Source of the DNA: Mya arenaria
Taxonomy: Eukaryota; Mollusca; Bivalvia; Myida; Myidae
Length of the DNA stretch: 64,000 nt
NCBI RefSeq assembly: GCF_026914265.1
Contig: NC_069123.1
Coordinates: forward strand, 50,352,949 to 50,416,948
Direction of reading: 5' to 3'
How positions within the stretch are numbered: the stretch's first letter is position 1; every line of letters starts with the position of its first letter. The notes below the pieces were generated by a model, which did not search any database, was not told the DNA's origin, and was given only the letters and a program-made list of their open reading frames with translations. The translations under genes and the position numbers were made by a program. Shown here piece by piece: positions 10,790 through 55,110 of the stretch.

Positions 10790-12433
10790 TCTCACATGGC
10801 CAGTCGACTTCACGACTTTTTATTGTTTTCAAGTACTTTAGAAAATGCCTTTCAGATCATTGCTATTTAGCGGAACATGTAGACTCATGGGTGTTAAGGT
10901 TTTCAAACATTTGACACCGTGACCATCTTTTTGAACAAATATCACCCATATGATCTTTATGACCGCATAACGACCTGTAAACTTTCTATATTGGACGAGT
11001 GATTATTCTTATGAAGTTAATGCAAATCAAAGCAAGATTGTTTGTATTATTATTTATTTTCACATTATTTATGTACATACTAACTAAGATGTTTGCACAT
11101 AATCGGAATAAAAACTCTGACATCATGTACCCTATGATACGAGGTTATTTCTGCCACAGAACAAAAATTCTTAACATCATTATATGCCATATACATGTAA
11201 ATGATATTTCGAATGGCCTAAATTCTCACTACAGCAGTCTTTAAAGATCTAAAGAGCAATCACCTGTCTTTTTTCCACTTTAAAACAAAAAGCATGACCA
11301 AAAAATTACAAAGAAAAACTAAACAGTAAAGTCAGAGATAAGGGCATTAGTAGAAAGGTGAGTATTGTCTTGATCTAGTAAGTTTAATTTCATGCGAGTA
11401 AAAAGTTTCAAATTACAGATTAGTTGAAGTGGTACCGGTAAATGACCAATTAAGTGTTTATATAAAAAATACCCCTGGCAAGCAATGAGACCTAAACAAA
11501 GAGTGTATGGAAGAGTCTGCATTCTCTTAACTTTAATTGTTATAAAACTGAAGTCATTTAGTTTTCACTTTCTTTACACACTTTGTGCATATCAACCATT
11601 AGCTCTATTGGGTGTAAAGATTCTACTAGACGACAGTGTCAATTAAAAAACAAGTATATAATTGTGTCAAACAGTAAATAATAATTCACATTATAATGAT
11701 TAGTTTTATTCCTAAATATCACTTTGAAATAAAGTATGCTTTGAACTCATTTCATAACAAGGAGTTCCAGTTTCAGACAGTCTGTTGATAGAAATAACCC
11801 CATAACAGCAGTCAACACGAACCATATTGCACATCAAACACAGTCATAACAATCACCTACAACAATCATTAACCTGTAAAGCCAGCTTCTACATTGAAAA
11901 GTACAGAATGCATAAGAACAATGATATACATGTACATTTATTCGTAAAATGTTATGTATTAACTACTGAGCAATATGGTTTTATTATTATCTAGGTGCAT
12001 ATAACAATACACCTTATATCCAAGTTCTCCAAAACAATCGACTGTCCCCATGAAGTATCAAATTAACAACTTAATACATGAGCTTACAAATTATTCCACA
12101 ACTGAATGTATGTTATGGATAATTATTAAGTCATAAACTTTAAAATAGAGTACTATTTAAATACAATTTAGTACATATGAGAATGCTCTGATTAAAAATT
12201 TATAGATGAAAGTAAAGGTAGGTATCAGGGGTACCGGTAAGTTTATTCACAAGGTCACTCAAAACCTTTGCATACATAAAATTTAAGCTGTCCAAAGACG
12301 GCCAGCTTGACATTTCAGAAGCCGTATTGGAAGAATAGCACTGAGTAGGAAAAAATATCAAATTGCCTGTTTATGCTGTTTTGTTAATGAAAGAGTGTAC
12401 ATAACCTTATTAAGAAATATTACACACAACTGA
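10790..12433. other. Non-genic stretch
   Basis: AT-rich sequence with no supportable gene. The short frames here (for example 10999-11244 and 11319-11522) lack recognisable motifs. Confidence 0.4.
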
Positions 12434-16900: not shown

Positions 16901-19900
16901 AAACCCAAGGAGCTCTGGTTACGTTGGTTTGATCAAGTAAACATAGGTTAGTTAATAAAATTAACAAGTTAAACGTTTGACACATATTTATTAAATCCTT
17001 TTGCCCCAAAAATTATTGCCGGACACGCGGGCCTACAATATAGCTGTGATTATCGGACCTCGCCACTTTCTCATGACCTTTACTTGCAAAAAGTCTTGGT
17101 AATACCGTAATCATATACTCAAGTTTTATGAAAAATCCCAAAGCAGTGAAGTGCAGTTAGAGTCTATGAAAGACATTAACTTTTGAATTATTACCAAAAC
17201 ATTACCTCTTTGAAATGGAATAATAGACCAATTTTTACACGTTTTTTTACCATTAAAGCCTGCCAAGTGCATTCAGATCACTAACTATACAGCATTTTTT
17301 TTACAACAATACAGAATAACTGAAAATCAGACTTAACTTAAATTTCTGAGTCTGAATTCAGTCCTTAGTGATGTTGAAATTATAGATCAGATATTCCTAA
17401 AACTAAAATCAGTGCGAACCCTGTCAATCCTGATTTCAGGGTTAATCAAGAATTTTGCAATACCTGAAAAGGGACAACAACTTTAAGACATAATTCCTTA
17501 CTTAATACCTTTGACACATATTATTATAACAGATCATTGATGTATGCTCATGGGACAAAAGCCTTTATGCATTTGTAACAAACTATGACGGAAATTGTTG
17601 TATGGTCATAACAAACTCTTCAACAAATTTGGAATGTTGCGATAAATTTGTTATAAGTGGAGTCAACTGTATGGTACCTCTCTCCTGAGCCGGAGGGTGG
17701 TGGTCGTGTGGGGAGGTCAGAGATCTGGGACGACAGTTTTGACTTGGCTGCAGTCTGCTGCTGCACACGCACCTCTGCCGCATCCGCCAGGTGCATCAAC
17801 GTCTTCCGCTCGGGGCTTTCTTCAAAGTTCTTACACCCAACACATTTACACGAGGAGTTACACATGATCTTTGCCTGTGAAAAAAAGGTGACATAATACA
17901 TGTAGCTACATTTTCTTTGCTATTGACGTTAACTAGACCAACTCTGACATGAGAGAAAAATATATATTAAAAATTCAGGTTTTATCAGCTCATGAGAAAA
18001 GATATAATTAAACAAAAACTTTCATTTCAGTGATGAATTTCACCCAAAGTGCCAGACTTCATGGAATATACCTACATTTAGAAACAGCTTACATAAACTA
18101 TGAGCATTAATCATGACCCCATGAAGGTTACCTTCAAGTGTAAAGGGGAGGGATCAATTAAGATGTAAGGATCTGGGACTTGCTTGCAACACATACAGAG
18201 ATATTGATATGAGTGACATGGGTCCTGCAAACAAAATGTTGCTAAGCATCTGTGTCACGTTTCAAAGTCCCACTATGCATGACAAACTTACAGCTTGGAT
18301 GCTACAGCCTATTCTCTGTAGGCATATATGAGGCATTCCATAATGTTAAACCTGTAAGTGTGGCCTTCACCTTGCAGGTAAAGATGTGGGTCTTGCGTGC
18401 AAACTATTGCCTTTGTGTGCCTTGCATCTGTGCCAGGTGATTTCAAATTTGCACAATGCATGACGAACATACCATCCAGACAAGAGCAGAAAACAGATGA
18501 AAGGACAGAGGAACAAACACACAAACAATGTAATATTTATATGCACACCTTTTGAAGCATAAAAATTGAAACAATGACATCTTCCACTATTTTCAAGAAA
18601 AATCTATCATCAGTTATTTCATGCAGTCAAGAACATTATAAACCTTGGGTCAAATAACATCTTTGTAATACTTAGCTGAAGCTGTTGACATGTTGACAAC
18701 ATTTACGTAAAATTCCCTAACATTTAGCAATTGCTGTTGCTTTTACACTTCCCAACCATGGAGAGCTACATCTGGATTGTTATTAGCGTTATTTTATTGT
18801 TTATGTACATGTGTCGTTCTATTTAATAACCTTTGACATTTTCATGATTCAATAACATTTATGTAAACAGTTATGGTTGCTGCTGATTTTGACATCTGTG
18901 TGTGCTGTATCTATGGTATTAAGGTTTTTAAACCGATTTTTCACATATTTTTTTTGACCCCTAAATTCATATGGGTCATCTTCTGACCATAACAAATGTG
19001 AATGAAAATTTGAGGGATCTACAACAAATCATCCATAATTCATGATCAGAAACCATTTTCCTTATAAAAATCACCACAACCTTGACCTCAGACATAATGA
19101 CCCTTAATTAACAGGGGTCATTTTCTGACCATGACCAATGTGCATACAAAGTTTGGGAATTGTACAGAGGCGTTTATAAGTTATTGATTAACAACCAAGT
19201 TTAGCGCCAAAGATGGCGCGTAACAGATTAATTCTGTGTTTTATATGCTTCACACACGAAACAAAAACTGACGAGTTAAAAACTAACATTTACCTCATAA
19301 CATTCACAGTAGTTCTTTAGACATCCAGAGCGTTTGCAGTTACAACCTTTGTTATGTCGACGGTCCTTCTCGCCAGCTCTACCCTTGCCTGATGACAACA
19401 AAAGTTTTCTTTTAAAACAATCCATTGTGTATATTATATTCAATAACTTACACAGTCATAACTATTTACCTTCGTTTTGTTACGAACAACAATACAATAT
19501 TTTGTTGTAAATTGCAATCCAGATCATAATATTATAATTGCATACTTTAAGGTTGGGAATGGTGCTCAATTTTTAACCAAAATTTGGCGCAGGATTCACA
19601 AGCCATGCGGAGCAATCAGTTAAGTTTCAGCAAAGAGCACAGAGAACATAAGCCATGATGAGTATCTGCATACCTATTTTAGGGTGGAAGGCGAGGGGGT
19701 TTCTCTCAAGGCACTGTTTGATGGCTCGTGACCGGTCCTCCTCATGGTCAAGATTGTTGGCACAGTTGTTACAGTTACAGTTGTGACAAAACTCTCCATT
19801 AGCAAAACAATCACAATACCTGTAAATAACAAGTGATGTTTATCAAACATTATGCCCCCATGAGCGCCATGTTGTCAAGAATATTTGAGGCAGTTTTAAG

Positions 19901-22900
19901 ATTATGACCATTCAAAGTGGGGGTATAGAAGGTACAGTTTAAAATCATGTTCAAATGATGACTGATATTTGCAGATAAACATGTATTATCTTAGCAGCAG
20001 GGAATAAGTAAATAAGATGAAGTTTTTAATGAACAATATGAGTTGTGATCTTGACCTTTGACTATATGACTTCAAGATCCATAGGGGTTATCTTCTGGTC
20101 ACTCACTCCCAACCTAAATGTCAACTTTGAGGGCCATGGGTGCAGGCATTGTCGAGCTATCACAGACTAGATTTTTGTGTTCAAGTTCACTGTGACCTTG
20201 ACCTTTGACCTGATGACCCAATCAATAGGGGTCATTGACTGGTCAGGCCCAACCTTCATGTCAAGTTTGATGACCAAAGGTTCATGAATTGTAAAGTTTG
20301 TGTTAAAGGTCACCATGACCCTGTCCCTTGACACGATGACCCCTAAAATCAATAGGGTTCATCTACTGGTTAGGCCAAACCTCGAAGTCAAGTATGATGA
20401 CCATAGGTCCAGATATTGTGGAGTTTGCCTTCAAGGTCACTATGACTCTGTCCCTTGACCCAAGACCCCTAAAATCAATGGGGTTGATCTACTGATTAGG
20501 CCAAACCTCGAAGTCATGTTTGAGGGCCATGAGTGCAGGCATTGTCGAGTTATCACTTGGACAACCTTTTAGCATTCTCAATGTGACCTTGACCTTTAAC
20601 CCATTGACCCCTAAAATCAATAGGGATCATCTACTGGCCAGACTCAGCCTCAATGTCAAGTTTTAAGGCCATAGGTCCAGGCATTGTTGAGACAGGCTTT
20701 GACAATTTTTACAAATTAAAGGTCACTGTGACCTTGACCTTTGACCCCATGATCCCTAAAATCAATAGGGGTCATCTACTAGACAGGCCCAACCTTCATG
20801 TCAAGTTTGCTGACAATAGGCCCAGGAATTGTTGAGTTATCACTCGCACAAGCTTTGGTCTACCGACCTACCAATCGACATGTGAATAGCAATGTTCCCC
20901 CCCCTTCTTCGAAGGGGGGCCTAATAAAGGAAAATATATGTATATGTATAAAATGTACTTCAATATATTTTTTTCGATAAAGATATACTTCATGACAGCC
21001 AATGAAGCTGTATACAAAATGAATATGAAAAGAGCCTGAAAAAACAGAGTTCTTCCGCAAAATCATTAACAAATGTATAAGTGAAAAAGTGATTCACTGG
21101 GTTAACTTCAAATTCAATGTGTCAGTTTTAATTTGATGGGTCAAATTACATTTTCAATTCAATAGGTCTGTTTTACTTCAATGGGTCAACTTACAGTTAA
21201 AATTCAATGAACCAGCTTACAGTTCTATTCAATAAGTCAACTTACAGTTTTAATTAAATGGACCAACTTATAAAACTTTTCAATTCAATGGACAAACCAG
21301 GGATTGAACTGGCAGATGAAAGACAGAAACCATTTGGGCGCTGATTTTGGGGACACTTCAAGCTCAAAATGGGAGTCAAAATGAGTGAGACACCCTGCCA
21401 TAGAATTAAAACTGGTTTTAGGAAGCTCATGTGAGGGCTATCCTGAAGCAAACTGGATAGTCAATACTAACAACAAAAACAGTAACAACCAAAAGTATCG
21501 GATCTGTCGGAATCCACAGACAAATCCCATCCCTGTCAGCTTACAGTTTCAATATAATGAGTCAACTTACAGTTTCAATCTAATGAGTCAACTTACAGTT
21601 TCAGTTCAATGAGTCAACTTACAGCTTCAATACACTGAGTCAACTTGCAGTCTTAGTTCAATCGGTCATTTTACTTTTTTATTCAATTACAATTAAATTT
21701 TCCAACTCACACTTTCAACAAGAGTTGTTTGTCAAACATTATGCCCCCCTGAGCACCATGTTGTCAGGATTATTTGGACAATTGAATGAAATATGATTGG
21801 ACCAAAATGACAGCTTACTTGTCATTGACATTGGAAGCCTTTGAGGCAGTTTTAAGACTATGACCATTCAAAGTGTGAGGATAGTAGGTATAGTTTTTAA
21901 TCATGTTCAGATGATGACTGATATTTGCAGATAAAAATGTATCCTCTTAGCTTCTAGCAGCAGGGAATAAGTAAATATGACAAAAAAAATTATGATGAAT
22001 ATGAGTTATGACCATGACCTCAAAATCCATAGGAGTCATCATCTGGTCACCCAAAATTTAAATGTCAAGTTTGAGGGCCATGGGTGCAGGCATTGTCAAG
22101 TTATCACACAGACATGCTTTTTGTGTTCAAGGTCACTGTGACCTTAACCTTTGACCCAATGACCCCTAAAATCAAAAGTGGTCATCTACTGGTCAGGCCC
22201 GACCTCCAAATCAAGTTTGAGGGCCATGGGTGCATACATTGTCCATTTATCACTCGGACAATATTTTAACATTCAAGGTCTAGGCATTGTTGAGTTATCA
22301 CTTGGACCAGCTTTAAAATCCTTTTACCATTAAAGGTCAGTGACCTTTGACCCGATGTCAAGTTATCACTCGGACAAGCTTTGGTCTACCAACGGACAGA
22401 CAGACAGACCGACAGACATGTGCAAAGTAATATACACCTCTTCTATGAAGACCGACATGTGCAAAGCAATATACACCTCTTCTATGAAGAGGGGCATAAT
22501 AATAATATGGGTCAACTTACAGTTTCAATTCAATGAGTGAACACATTGAGTCAACTTACAGTTTTAAGCACTGAGATTTGGTACAATTACATGGCTTCCT
22601 CTGTCTGGCACCACCACTTGCATCCGCTGACGGCCTGAAAACAGGGCAATACACAAATATTTACATGTCCATGGTTGGTCAATGTCAATCATTTTCATCG
22701 TACCATAAAAAAAGAGCATTCATTAGAGTACATAAATTGTATATACAGGGTTGACATTATGTTTTTCACAAACCGATTTTTTTAATAATCTAACAGATCT
22801 GGCCAGGGGTCAAGGGGGCCGGCTAGGCCCCCTTGTTAGGTCTAGGGCAACGCCCTGGTCGGGGGTTCAGGGGGGCGAAGCCCCCCGAGAAAAAAACGAA

Positions 22901-25900
22901 TTTTAGACATTCCTGAGGGTCTAAAACCTGTTTTCCTGAAAGCAAAATTGACTGTTTGGAAAACATTTATTCAGACTATTCTACCTAACAAAACACATTT
23001 CACACATCTTGCAAACAGGACACACCTTTGACTGTGTCCTAAATATCCTGTTTGCAAGAGGTGTAAAGAAGTCTGTATGCCAAAAAATAATAAAGGTAAC
23101 ACAACCATATTTTCATCAAAAAATTAAAATGAAAAACCAGTATTCACGGACAAGCCTAGATCTGAATTTTTCCAAAATTACTGAGAGGGTAAAGAGCATT
23201 GTCCTTCAATAAGAATTTATTAGAATTGAAGAGGAATGCACTTAACTTGTCAACTAAATTTAATTTATTTTTTTTAAATTGGATAACTGATCGAATTGAA
23301 TCAAAACTGCATTGAATGTATTAATAAATATGAGTAGTACCTTTCAGATGAACTTATATTAAGTTATTTTCATGTTTTAAATGTTAATAAAATCAAACTT
23401 TGAAAACAATATAAATGGGCCGAAATATCCAATTTTGGATTATGTGGCTACACATCTGGCTCTAGAATCTCTTGTCATCTCCTGCAAATCAAATTGTTCT
23501 AAATAGTAATCAGAGCTAGATGACTGATGATGTCGGTCTATTTTAGTTTGGCGAAACTATGGGCCCAGACTCAATCATTAATGGAATGGAAATAATTTAC
23601 ATTAACACTTAGATTCTACATAGATTGAATAATAAATCATTTGTCTTACCTTGATAACAGCTAACAACAGAATGAACTTGAAGCAATGAAATCACCTCCT
23701 ACCTGGAGATCGCCGAGAAAAAAAAAAAGTGGGAAGAATCTAGCTTAGCGGCTGAAATCGCCGACCATAATATCTTACATTTTGTTTCAGAAAGTTCGCT
23801 AGCTTTTCATATTGAGTAATCTTAGCGGGGGTTTGAAGGTATCAGCACCAGACATATCAGAAACGACACATTGATTTTATCGCGATCCGCTAGACTAGAT
23901 TTGTTCCGTAACAGAAAACAAACACATTTTATTCAACAAAATGAACATTTCAAGCAGGCGCCATGCATCGATCGTAACTTAAAAAGAACAACAAAAACAA
24001 TATCGTAACTTAAAAAGAACAACAAACAATGTGTTTCCAGTTTGCATTTTCGTTCTCACCGGTTCTTTGTTGGAACCCAAAATCAAATAGACTTTTAAAC
24101 TTTTTTGATTTCGGCTGCGCCATTGTGCATGTGTTGTTTGTTTTTTGTATCGCGGCACATCATTGGTCGCTCAAAACTGGAATAATCAATCAAACGCTGA
24201 CTTATTTTTTTCAAGCGTTTGTACTACAAGGAACAGTGTCGCTATACAGTGTTCATCGGCAATTAGTACGGCGATTTTCTTCGACTTTTTCGGCCATTTT
24301 GTTTTCGATCTCAATTTTAAAATTCCTGAAAAAGTAACCGATTTTTTCACGATTTTAAACGATGGATTCGATCGGCAATCGGTTCATAATGACAACCCTG
24401 TATATATATCCATGCAAAGCAACTGTGAACTATGAGAAGCAAGCAGTAACTTTCAATCATCATTTGATGATCATATTTCTTTGACATTGACTGGATGTGC
24501 CCTAAGTTTCAACTTAAGTATGTTAACAAATCATTGAGCACAGAAAGACTACATTAGGTTTGAATGTACGTACACTTGTGTCTTAGTCTGCCCAGAGGGA
24601 GCTATTGGTTGGTAGCTTGCTGAGGAGGACTTCTCGAGCCGTGAGGATGCCTGATTTGCCAGTGTCTGAGAGGCAGGGGGTGTGGCCACAGTGGCTGGCT
24701 TCAGCTGTAGCTGCCCTTGTAACTGATATAAAACGCAACACAATATACAAAAAACGTCTTCAAGTGTGCCACTTAAAAAAGAGACATCTTTTGAAGCCCC
24801 TTAGTCTGCATTTAGGAATATGGAAAAAGAAAAATCATTCACTGATAAAATGTGACATAAGCTTCTTCAACCAGTAACTGATTTTTATAAGCACATTCTA
24901 TTCAAACTGCAATAATACTAGGCATGATTTTCATATATTTTTTATTATAATATTCCAGTTTTTGATAAATGTTTTAGACAAATGGACATAGGAAATTACT
25001 ATACTGATTTATTCATGTATTACGTTTATACGAGGTGCAGTCAAAAAGTTCCCGGACTGGTTATATATTGCACACTTTTGACTTCTGACTATGCCGATAC
25101 TTGTCACACATAAATCTTAACAACATGTTAACATTTTGTAAGCAGAAATAATTACATAGCATCCATATTTTGATAGAAAAATATGTTCATTGTAGTATGT
25201 AACCTACGCTACGGATCACTTTGAATTATTAACGATTACGAAATTGTTTTCTCTGTTATAAACGCTAGGTATACATTATTTTGGCATCGTTTTATCATGT
25301 AAATTTACATGACGTCTCACTAACGTCATTTCTAAACATACGTCCAAAACAAACATCATCACTTAAAAATCATTTAATTAGTATGCATTGTCTGAAGCCA
25401 TGGAAGATATCGCCGGTGAAAAAACGTCAACGTCATCCGAGCGAATGGAGCAACGGACAGTCATTAACTACTCTGCGAGAGTGGGAATGACACTAAAGGA
25501 CGCATGGAAATTTATAAATCTGGTCGATGGTTTACGTAAATGTTCCCGGACACTCATATTGGATTGGCACAAGCATTTCCGGAACGGTCGTGACGACATA
25601 ACTGACAGTAATGGAACAGGATAGTGGCAGTTCCGACAAAATGCAGCGTGTCATTTCGGTAGATCGGCGGAAATCGTCAACGAAATAGCTGATGTGTCGG
25701 ATTTAGCCATGGGAATATGAGGATTTTTGTATGATTCTTTGAAATACCAAGTACGACCATTATAAAACCTCATTTCAGTGAAAATGGTGTTTTTGAAATT
25801 TAATTAAATTCAATAGGAAACTGTCCCAGCCTGGTGGATGATGTAATGTTACCTGTGAGAGGTAGGATGCTGGGACAAGAGCGAAACCCTGCACACCCTG

Positions 25901-28900
25901 GGGCCCCGTGCTTCCGGTAGACAAAAATGTAGTAGCTCCACCCGTAGATATCTGCTGTAAACCAGTACCTGCAATCATACATAAAAAAACTCAAAGTTCA
26001 TGACATTTCATGAGAACCTTATAGCTGTCACTTTGGTACTTAGGACATATACCTTAATTAAAAAACAAAATCAATGTCAAAACAAAATAAATCACCAGTA
26101 CTGATAAAAAAAATTAATTTCCTTTCAACAATAAGAAAACTAGAAGCGCCGCAATACGACGAAACCAGGTTTTTGTTATGGGCAATCAGAAATTATAGCC
26201 AATTAATTTGTTGTATGACTTTATCTTTACTTTTATCAAAAAGAGACGCCCCCCTCAAAAGCAATCCCAAGCTAGCTCTTTACATAAGCTACCCACACAC
26301 CAAGTTTAATCAATATCTATCAATGCTATCAAAAGTTATTTGGCAAAAAACATTTTTCTATTTAAAGTAACATTGACATTGACCGTAGCCCCTCCCCACT
26401 CAAAAGCAATCCCAAGCTAGCTCTTCACATGCTACCTAAACACCAAGTTTCATCAATATCTGTCAATCCTAACTAAAGTTATTGGGTGGAAACCATTTTT
26501 CTATTTTTAGTAATAGTGACCTTGACCATAGCCCCTCCCCACTCAAATGCAATTCCAAGCTAGCTCTTCACATAAGCTACCTACACACTAAGTTTCATCA
26601 ATATCTATCAATTCTAACTTATGTTATTGGGCAGAAACCATTTTTCTATTTTTAGTAACAGGCGACCTTGACCTTAGCCCCAACCCCCTCAAAAGCAATC
26701 CCAAGCTAGCTCTGTACATAAGCTACCTACACATCAAGTTTCATCAATATCGGTCAATGCTAACTAAAGTTATTAGGCAGAAACCATTTTTCTATTTTAA
26801 GTAACAGTGACCTTGACCATTTTTCTATTTTAAGTAATAATGACCTTGACCTTAGCCCCTCCCCACTCAAAAGCAATCCCAAGCTAGCTCTTCACATAAG
26901 CAACGTACACACCAAGTTTCATCAATATCGGTCAATGTTAACTAAAGTTATTGGGTGGAAACCATTTTTCTATTTTAAGTAACAGTGACCTTGACCTTAG
27001 CCCCTCCCCACTCAAAAGCAATCCCAAGCTAGCTCTTCACATAAGCTACCTACACACCAACTTTCGTCATTATCTATCAATCCTAACTAAAGTTATTGGG
27101 CAGAAACCATTTTTCTATTTTTAGTAACAGGCGACCTTGACCTTAGACCCTACCCCCTCAAAAGCAATCCCAAGCTAGCTCCTCACATAAGCTACCTACA
27201 CACTAAGTTTCATCAATATCAGTCAATGCTAACTAAAGTTATTGGGCAGAAACCATTTTTCTATTTTAAGTAACAGTGACCTTGACCACTTTTCTATTTT
27301 AAGTAATAGTGACCTTGACCTTAGCCCCTCCCCACTCAAAAGCAATCCCAAGCTAGCTCTTCACATGCTACCTAAACACCAAGTTTCATCAATATCTGTC
27401 AATCCTAACTAAAGTTATTGGGCAGAAACCATTTTTCTATTTTTAGTAACAGGCGACCTTGACCTTAGACCCTACCCCCTCAAAAGCAATCCCAAGCTAG
27501 CTCTTCACATAAGCTACCTACACACTAAGTTTCATCAATATCTATCAATTCTAACTTATGTTATTGGGCAGAAACCATTTTTCTATTTTTAGTAACAGGC
27601 GACCTTGACCTTAGCCCCAACCCCCTCAAAAGCAATCCCAAGCTAGCTCTGTACCTAAGCTACCTACACATCAAGTTTCATCAATATCGGTCGATGCTAA
27701 CTAAAGTTATTAGGCGATAACCATTTTTCTATTTTAAGTAACAGTGACCTTGACCATTTTTCTATTTTAAGTAATAATGACCTTGACCTTAGCCCCTCCC
27801 CACTCAAAAGCAATCCCAAGCTAGCTCTTCACATAAGCAACGTACACACCAAGTTTCATCAATATCGGTCAATGTTAACTAAAGTTATTGGGTGGAAACC
27901 ATTTTTCTATTTTAAGTAACAGTGACCTTGACCTTAGCCCCTCCCCACTCAAAAGCAATCCCAAGCTAGCTCTTCACATAAGCTACCTACACACCAACTT
28001 TCGTCATTATCTATCAATCCTAACTAAAGTTATTGGGCAGAAACCATTTTTCTATTTTTAGTAACAGGCGACCTTGACCTTAGACCCTACCCCCTCAAAA
28101 GCAATCCCAAGCTAGCTCTTCACATAAGCTACCTACACACTAAGTTTCATCAATATCTGTCAATGCTAACTAAAGTTATTGGGCAGAAACCATTTTTCTA
28201 TTTTAAGTAACAGTGACCTTGACCACTTTTCTATTTTAAGTAATAGTGACCTTGACCTTAGCCCCTCCCCACTCAAAAGCAATCCCAAGCTAGCTCTTCA
28301 CATACGCAACTTACACACCAAGTTTCGTCAATATCTATCAATGCTAACTAAAGTTATTGGGCAGAAACCATTTTTCTATTTTTAGTAACAGTTACCTTGA
28401 CCTTAGCCACACCCCCCTTAAAAGCAATCCCAAGCTAGCTCTTCCCATAAGCTACCTACACACCAAGTTTCATCAATATCTATCAATGCTAACTAAAGTT
28501 ATTGAACAGAAACCAATGTTTGACGCACGCCCGCTTGTCCGTCCGCCCAATGACAACCTCATTCTAATAACCCGGTTTTCGTTGAAAACCTAGTTAATAA
28601 CCTGATGGACAGCATCAGGCAAGTTTCCACTCCCTGCAATTATTATTTTAGAGCTTGTCTTCGTTGTTTCTACTTTCTACCTTTCCTATTGCCATAATTT
28701 CTGTCCCCTTGTCGTAATTTGAGCTGATGTCACCTTAAATTACCCCTCCCATTGTTTTTATTCCATGCCTTAACTATAATGTCTCTAACTCCCATGGTCA
28801 GGGTTACAATTCCTGTTACCAGGGTTCGAATTTAGACTCGCATACTCGCAAAATGCCAGCGACATTTACAAATTGCGAGTGACTTTTATTCAAGCTCCAC

Positions 28901-53904: not shown

Positions 53905-55110
53905 TGTACAAATTCAGCGACTTTTGCTACATTCGCAACATTCGCAACATACGCGACAATTCCCATATTTGCAACATTCGCGACATTTCCAATATTTGCG
54001 ACATTTGCAACATTCGCGACATTCACATTATTCCCGACAGTCACATTATTCGCGACACTCACAACATTCGCGACATTCCCAACATTCGCAAAATTCCCAA
54101 CATTCGTAATGGCATTCCCGACATTCCCAACATTCGCGACATTCCCAACAATCGCGACAATCCCGACATTCGCGACATTCCTAACATTCGCGACATACTT
54201 ACCTTTCGCAACATTCGCAACATTCGCGGCATTCCCAACCTTCGCGACATTCCCATCATTCGCAACATACCCGGTATTCACATCATTTCCAACATTAGCG
54301 ACATTCACAACATTCTCTATATTCATCGTATGTACAACATTCGAAACATTCAAAACATTTACCGTATTCACAACATTTGCGATATTTACAACATTCGACA
54401 CATTCAAGGTAATTCAGGACATTCACAACATTCGCGAAATTCGCAACATTCACGACATAAGCAATATTCACCGCTTGTACAACATTGATGGCATTCGAAA
54501 CATTTACCGTATTCACAACATTTGCGACAATCGACACTTTCACGATTCCCAAGATTCGCAACATTCACGACATTCCCAACAATCGCGACAATCCCGACAT
54601 TCGCGACATTCCTAACATTCGCGACATACTTACCTTTCGCAACATTCGCAACATTCGCGGCATTCCCAACCTTCGCGACATTCCCATCATTCGCAACATA
54701 CCCGGTATTCACATCATTTCCAACATTAGCGACATTCACAACATTCTCTATATTCATCGTATGTACAACATTCGAAACATTCAAAACATTTACCGTATTC
54801 ACAACATTTGCGATATTTACAACATTCGACACATTCAAGGTAATTCAGGACATTCACAACATTCGCGAAATTCGCAACATTCACGACATAAGCAATATTC
54901 ACCGCTTGTACAACATTGATGGCATTCGAAACATTTACCGTATTCACAACATTTGCGACAATCGACACTTTCACGATTCCCAAGATTCGCAACATTCACG
55001 ACATTTGACCCATTCAAAATAATCATAACATTCAGGATCTTCACAGAATTTGCGACTATCACAACATTCTGGAATCTGGACATTCACAATATTCGGGACA
55101 TTTATAACAG
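53905..55110. repeat. 9-bp minisatellite with a recent 431-bp duplication
   Basis: Units of 9 bp close to ACATTCGCR fill the stretch, producing Thr-Phe-Ala or Asn-Val-Ala periodic frames on the two strands. A block of 431 bp (about 54145-54575) is followed by a second copy (54576-55006) that looks identical over long reaches, for example around 54301 versus 54732. The near-identity against the diverged 9-mers indicates a recent tandem duplication. Confidence 0.92.

Follow-up and report, generated by a model that had tools for sequence, protein, structure and literature searches.

LIN54 and its genuine splice

The gene on the minus strand of the 64-kb window, i.e. the whole stretch of DNA analyzed in this study, is LIN54. 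The product of three joined exons of the window, which ends in YCECYE, matched the human Protein lin-54 homolog (PDB 5fd3) with an E-value of 2.9e-49 over 94/94 residues, and the Pfam family TCR/CXC with an E-value of 4.3e-19. A segment at 17874-17758, which we take to be a further part of LIN54, has 92% identity to the human residues. From the 5fd3 and Pfam matches and this segment, the CXC repeats and the linker of the LIN54 / tesmin-TSO1 CXC family are present.

The exon at 22560-22634 (minus strand, 75 nt) had been assigned to LIN54 as the start of the first CXC repeat in the initial annotation, and both the 5fd3 and the Pfam match confirm this. Its 5′ edge (TTTTCAG/G; slashes mark exon-intron borders) was taken from the sequence alone. 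The genuine donor GT lies at 22559-22558 and the acceptor AG at 19821-19820, after which the next LIN54 exon begins at 19819 (19674-19819, minus strand; assigned by sequence and 5fd3 match). This splice joins CT/G into a leucine codon followed by YCDCF, and the intron between the two exons has a length of 2.74 kb. Scored with a human donor PWM, which gives rough absolute values in a mollusc, the genuine donor is weak (PWM 1.93, with T at -1; U1 duplex -5.4 kcal/mol), and two other LIN54 donors reach 2.83 and 2.98.

Further repetitive sequence was observed elsewhere in the window. At 26249-28515, 5′ of exon 22634-22560 on the gene strand, there is a large array resembling a satellite, in which periods of about 145, 178, 324, and 469 bp are nested. 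At 53908-54894 (minus strand) the sequence is repetitive as well, and its translations are rich in cysteine and glutamate (CREC and CECRE types) and broken by stops.

An array of 26-bp units with donor-like sites

The intron contains a minisatellite, i.e. head-to-tail units repeated well beyond chance, as seen by TRF and by wrap-around alignment to one circular 26-mer. TRF reported a period of 26 with 4.5 copies and 87% matches at 21535-21651; the unit is therefore 26 bp according to both methods and not about 27 bp as initially annotated. All parts of the array lie on the minus strand. The exon-intron junction is itself the first repeat unit (22551-22574; nhmmer E 0.0035; exact matches of 18-19 nt with the units at 21601 and 21253) and carries the genuine donor ACT/GTAAGT at 22559. 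The nearest intronic unit at 22512-22537 is identical to the consensus 26-mer by alignment and profile, and holds a twin donor at 22520, 39 nt or 1.5 units downstream of the genuine one. This exon-side piece reached a wrap-around score of 58 versus a maximum of 24 in 100 shuffles. Block b (21535-21716; score 226, with 18 as the highest value among 100 shuffles) consists of about 7 units, which become degenerate towards the dispersed element described below, and its donors are at 21710, 21648, 21622, 21596, 21570, and 21544. Block c (21092-21292; score 180, with 22 as the highest value among 100 shuffles) comprises about 7.7 units with donors at 21245, 21220, and 21194. Summed by length, the three pieces downstream of the donor amount to about 17 units.

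When the 64 kb were searched for CTGTAAGTTGA with at most one mismatch, 10 matches were obtained, while 1.59 were expected and none of 100 shuffles reached 10. Nine of them, the genuine donor included, are on the minus strand at 21186-22561 and one is at 11408. These counts support the initial annotation in that the genuine LIN54 donor lies inside a repeat unit and that more units follow in two intron blocks. A profile built from eight intronic units, with the exon end held out, gave nine matches above its inclusion threshold in the 64 kb, namely the eight model units and the LIN54 exon end; a further copy of the unit above this threshold was not found in the window. The motif GTAAG is kept in eight downstream units (22520, 21622, 21596, 21570, 21544, 21245, 21220, and 21194). 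The "about ten decoys" counted initially thus correspond to ten array sites, of which only these eight carry GTAAG, plus one GTGAG (21710) and one GCAAG (21648).

An exact 21-mer of the unit had no match in viral contigs. For an 18-mer, a single match was obtained, in an archaeal MAG; by chance alone, several would be expected in 257 Gb. The Rfam search of 19000-23500 returned a single sub-threshold match to MIR394, which was dismissed as chance (22.3 bits versus a gathering score of 60).

Decoys with a core identical to that of the genuine donor equal it in PWM score and in U1 duplex energy. On the same human PWM, six array sites (22520, 21710, 21596, 21570, 21245, and 21194) equal or exceed the genuine donor; the latter is itself weak, and four intron sites outside the array (22203, 21818, 20871, and 20106) reach its score, too. 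On the whole minus strand this score is reached at 139 sites (2.17 per kb), and on the antisense strand of the intron at 7. The array is locally dense in donors, and the intron is not exceptional. In local RNA folding, the probability of being unpaired was 0.056 for the twin donor at 22520 versus 0.004 for the genuine donor. By accessibility, the genuine donor was at the 20th percentile, while the array sites, ten in number, spanned the 11th to the 67th; no simple rule hiding the decoys was found among these ten sites.

Origin and later history of the array

The junction and the unit at 21253 share an exact match of 19 nt, 8 of them coding, which reads TTAAAACT on the exon side and GTAAGTTGACT on the intron side; with the unit at 21601 the junction shares 18 nt, AAACT and GTAAGTTGACTCA. 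The repeat units hence contain the exon's own donor, as in human IFI6, and identical cores have equal PWM scores. The coding part of the shared junction encodes L-K-L, which is identical in human LIN54 (5fd3), and the array should therefore be younger than the coding side. Since the 18-19 shared nt include coding bases, the array most likely grew from the LIN54 exon-intron junction, and we infer that copying proceeded from exon to intron.

Homology reaching deeper into the exon was considered and dropped. Aligned to the unit, 21/24 bases of the exon end agree, which is no better than random synonymous codons: synonymous recodings reached the alignment of the actual exon end in 2557/20000 cases with CT fixed, in 4441/20000 with AAACT fixed, and in 4404/20000 with AAACT left out. 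Among 20000 sampled 20-mers of the window, 17 aligned as well as the exon end, and among those ending in AAACT 19/276 did. As the recoding test was not significant, the coding part that was copied may comprise 5-8 nt only. As a control for the junction matches, 406/3298 of the 51-mers of the window had an 18-nt exact match in the next 1.5 kb, a high rate that we take to stem from other tandem arrays in the window; an 18-nt match therefore marks tandem repetition and by itself is not unusual. The initial description of a minisatellite built from the LIN54 donor is thus upheld by the shared junction with its coding bases, and is not carried further by homology deeper in the exon, which is not significant against recoding.

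Alternatively, the minisatellite could be of other origin, i.e. a dispersed repeat or born within the intron, and the match to the junction could be due to chance or later capture. An array born within the intron could conceivably match the junction by chance; the outcome of the recoding test agrees with another origin, as does the first spacing, which is 39 nt and not 26. Such an origin leaves the exact matches of 18-19 nt across the junction to coincidence or capture, on a coding side whose residues are identical in human LIN54, and for a unit that has no other copy above the inclusion threshold in the 64-kb window, and we consider it unlikely.

Two stretches of other sequence interrupt the array. 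A dispersed element (copy A, minus strand, about 22495-21717, left edge approximate) lies between the exon-side units and block b; it was recognized by blastn and by alignment with a second copy in the same intron (copy B, 19828-20920, minus strand, right edge 20920 approximate). On the right of copy A, the adjoining 51 nt score as degenerate units, at a level matched by 1/500 shuffles and by 4/500 random minus-strand windows. By eye, GAAAGTGTGAGTTGG and GAAACTGTAAGTTGA agree there at 12/15 positions, in a register differing from the one chosen by the wrap-around alignment. In the 16 nt at the left edge of copy A, unit-like sequence was not found (480/500 shuffles were equally good), and nhmmer on the site rejoined across copy A gave weak matches only. 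Blocks b and c are separated by a spacer of 242 bp (21293-21534, minus strand; defined by alignment register and blastn), of which a second copy was not found within the 64-kb window. In the wrap-around alignment, with block edges set by eye, the last position of block b falls on unit column 0 and the first of block c on column 1. As the unit register is unbroken across it, the spacer looks like a second insertion. The array was probably once one block touching the exon, later split by copy A and the spacer; the units themselves argue for this original continuity more firmly at the spacer than at copy A.

Only 6 nt separate the end of copy B from the acceptor AG that precedes the next LIN54 exon; most of the pyrimidine tract of the genuine acceptor, and perhaps the branch site of the genuine splice, thus seem to come from this end of the element. 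This copy is internally repetitive at 20044-20836 (minus strand), with a TRF period of 127 at 20174-20523 and many internal blastn matches, which is a possible reason for its exceeding copy A in length.

Predicted effects of the decoys and interpretation

Across the junction the reading frame is AAA CTG TAA, so that any extension past 22560 meets TAA at once. Direct use of a decoy gives CLKL followed by a stop in 9/9 GT decoys tested (the GC site at 21648 was outside this test). Frame-shifted variants of the DNA-binding domain, which had been envisaged in the initial annotation, therefore fail for direct decoy use and were ruled out. Instead, decoy use could give a truncated protein or RNA decay; an alternative product with a premature stop, as predicted here, is also a mark of regulated unproductive splicing. 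Pseudo-exons of 30-350 nt, formed by combining five chosen acceptor-like sites with eight array donors, contained a stop in 12/12 cases. The top-scoring acceptor-like AG of the intron is located in the 242-bp spacer with its G at 21309 (21309-21330, minus strand; GTTTCTGTCTTTCATCTGCCAG). Its score is 18 versus 14 for the genuine acceptor by a crude pyrimidine count, and together with the array donor at 21245 it would delimit a pseudo-exon of 63 nt. Among the 26 rotations of the unit, the GTAAGT columns ranked 8 and ACTGTAAGT ranked 7 in conservation, in a comparison within this one array of 20 rows, many of them partial. In these rows conservation of the donor columns does not exceed that of the other unit positions, and thus selection keeping the decoys was not seen.

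Two functional explanations were weighed against these data. The array could control LIN54 dosage if a regulated share of the transcripts were spliced at the twin donor 22520, or took up pseudo-exons with an array donor at their end, and so met an early stop within the first half of the first CXC repeat or shortly behind it. The twin donor would be the best candidate for a real effect: it equals the genuine donor in score at a distance of 39 nt, it is more accessible in local folding, and of two equal competing donors the intron-proximal one is often favored. The pseudo-exons, all 12 with a stop, and among them the 63-nt exon from 21309 to 21245, point in the same direction. Set against this are the lack of extra conservation of the donor columns, the four comparable donor-like sites elsewhere in the intron at a strand-wide frequency of 2.17 per kb, the fact that stops are expected in any intronic sequence, and an acceptor score that is a crude pyrimidine count only; regulated diversion appears improbable to us. 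Less credible still is a reading in which a self-seeded donor minisatellite would tune the LIN54 dose, with array length determining what fraction of the transcripts carries a stop within the first CXC repeat. The other explanation is telescripting, with the array acting as a sink for U1 and thereby protecting the pre-mRNA against cleavage and polyadenylation that come too early. It could draw on the many U1 sites on the sense strand and on an AATAAA at 21683 flanked by the array donors at 21710 and 21622. This AATAAA is itself inside block b, though, and it is the only one in an intron of just 2.74 kb, accompanied by four ATTAAA, two of which (21254 and 21132) also lie within array blocks. 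In addition, U1 pairing of the units is modest (-5.4 kcal/mol), and one intronic site outside the array pairs at -8.8 kcal/mol. The polyadenylation shield proposed initially would consequently have little basis at this locus, and we regard it as very improbable.

Related features are known from other systems. The repeat unit of human IFI6 (6-16) is 12 bp, whereas that at LIN54 is 26 bp and its array is interrupted by insertions. Predicted products with early stops recall poison exons and unproductive splicing, from which LIN54 differs in that the donor columns within the array are without extra conservation. AGGT has a role in intron gain by tandem genomic duplication. That process, as outlined for example in PMC4974935, and the LIN54 array are alike in that a duplication copies splice-site sequence, whereas at LIN54 no new intron is implied and the copies sit inside an intron. 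With targets of U1 telescripting, as these are characterized in the abstracts consulted, the locus has extra U1-binding sites in the intron in common, but it appears unlike them in its short intron and few polyadenylation signals. A precedent is IFI6, where according to the cited passages tandem units each carry a splice donor, with several donors in series as at LIN54, and where a 1995 study reported that two downstream repeat units are used as donors and encode different isoforms (PMC4526556; the 1995 reference is cited also in PMC2572611 and PMC2915984). Unlike these used donors, a LIN54 decoy used directly is predicted to lead to an immediate stop. No report of a splice-donor array at LIN54 was seen in the titles and abstract openings covered by literature searches, of which only a small part were directed at LIN54 by name. 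The array looks like a kind of feature already known from human IFI6 and like no new kind of control.

We consider it likely that the locus holds a neutral or nearly neutral intronic minisatellite that was seeded by the LIN54 donor and would now and then lead to unproductive splicing. A segment of about 26 bp across the border of exon and intron in LIN54 would have been duplicated in tandem, expanded to about 17 units, and later interrupted by two insertions. With the donor contained in this seed, every intact unit would have inherited a copy of equal local strength. As the first donor after the 75-nt exon, the genuine one is presumably still selected by exon definition, and decoy use is probably low. 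Occasional use of a downstream copy, mainly of the twin 39 nt further on, would lead to an in-frame stop and an unproductive transcript.

The locus looks like a fossil of a splice junction growing into a tandem array, with equally strong local donors behind an exon of a gene that is conserved. Should splicing still rely almost entirely on the genuine donor, the locus would show in nature whether exon definition outweighs the local strength of donors; otherwise, the array would be a repeat-length switch on LIN54. Should the improbable dose-tuning hold true, copy-number differences among individuals would alter the level of a core cell-cycle regulator.
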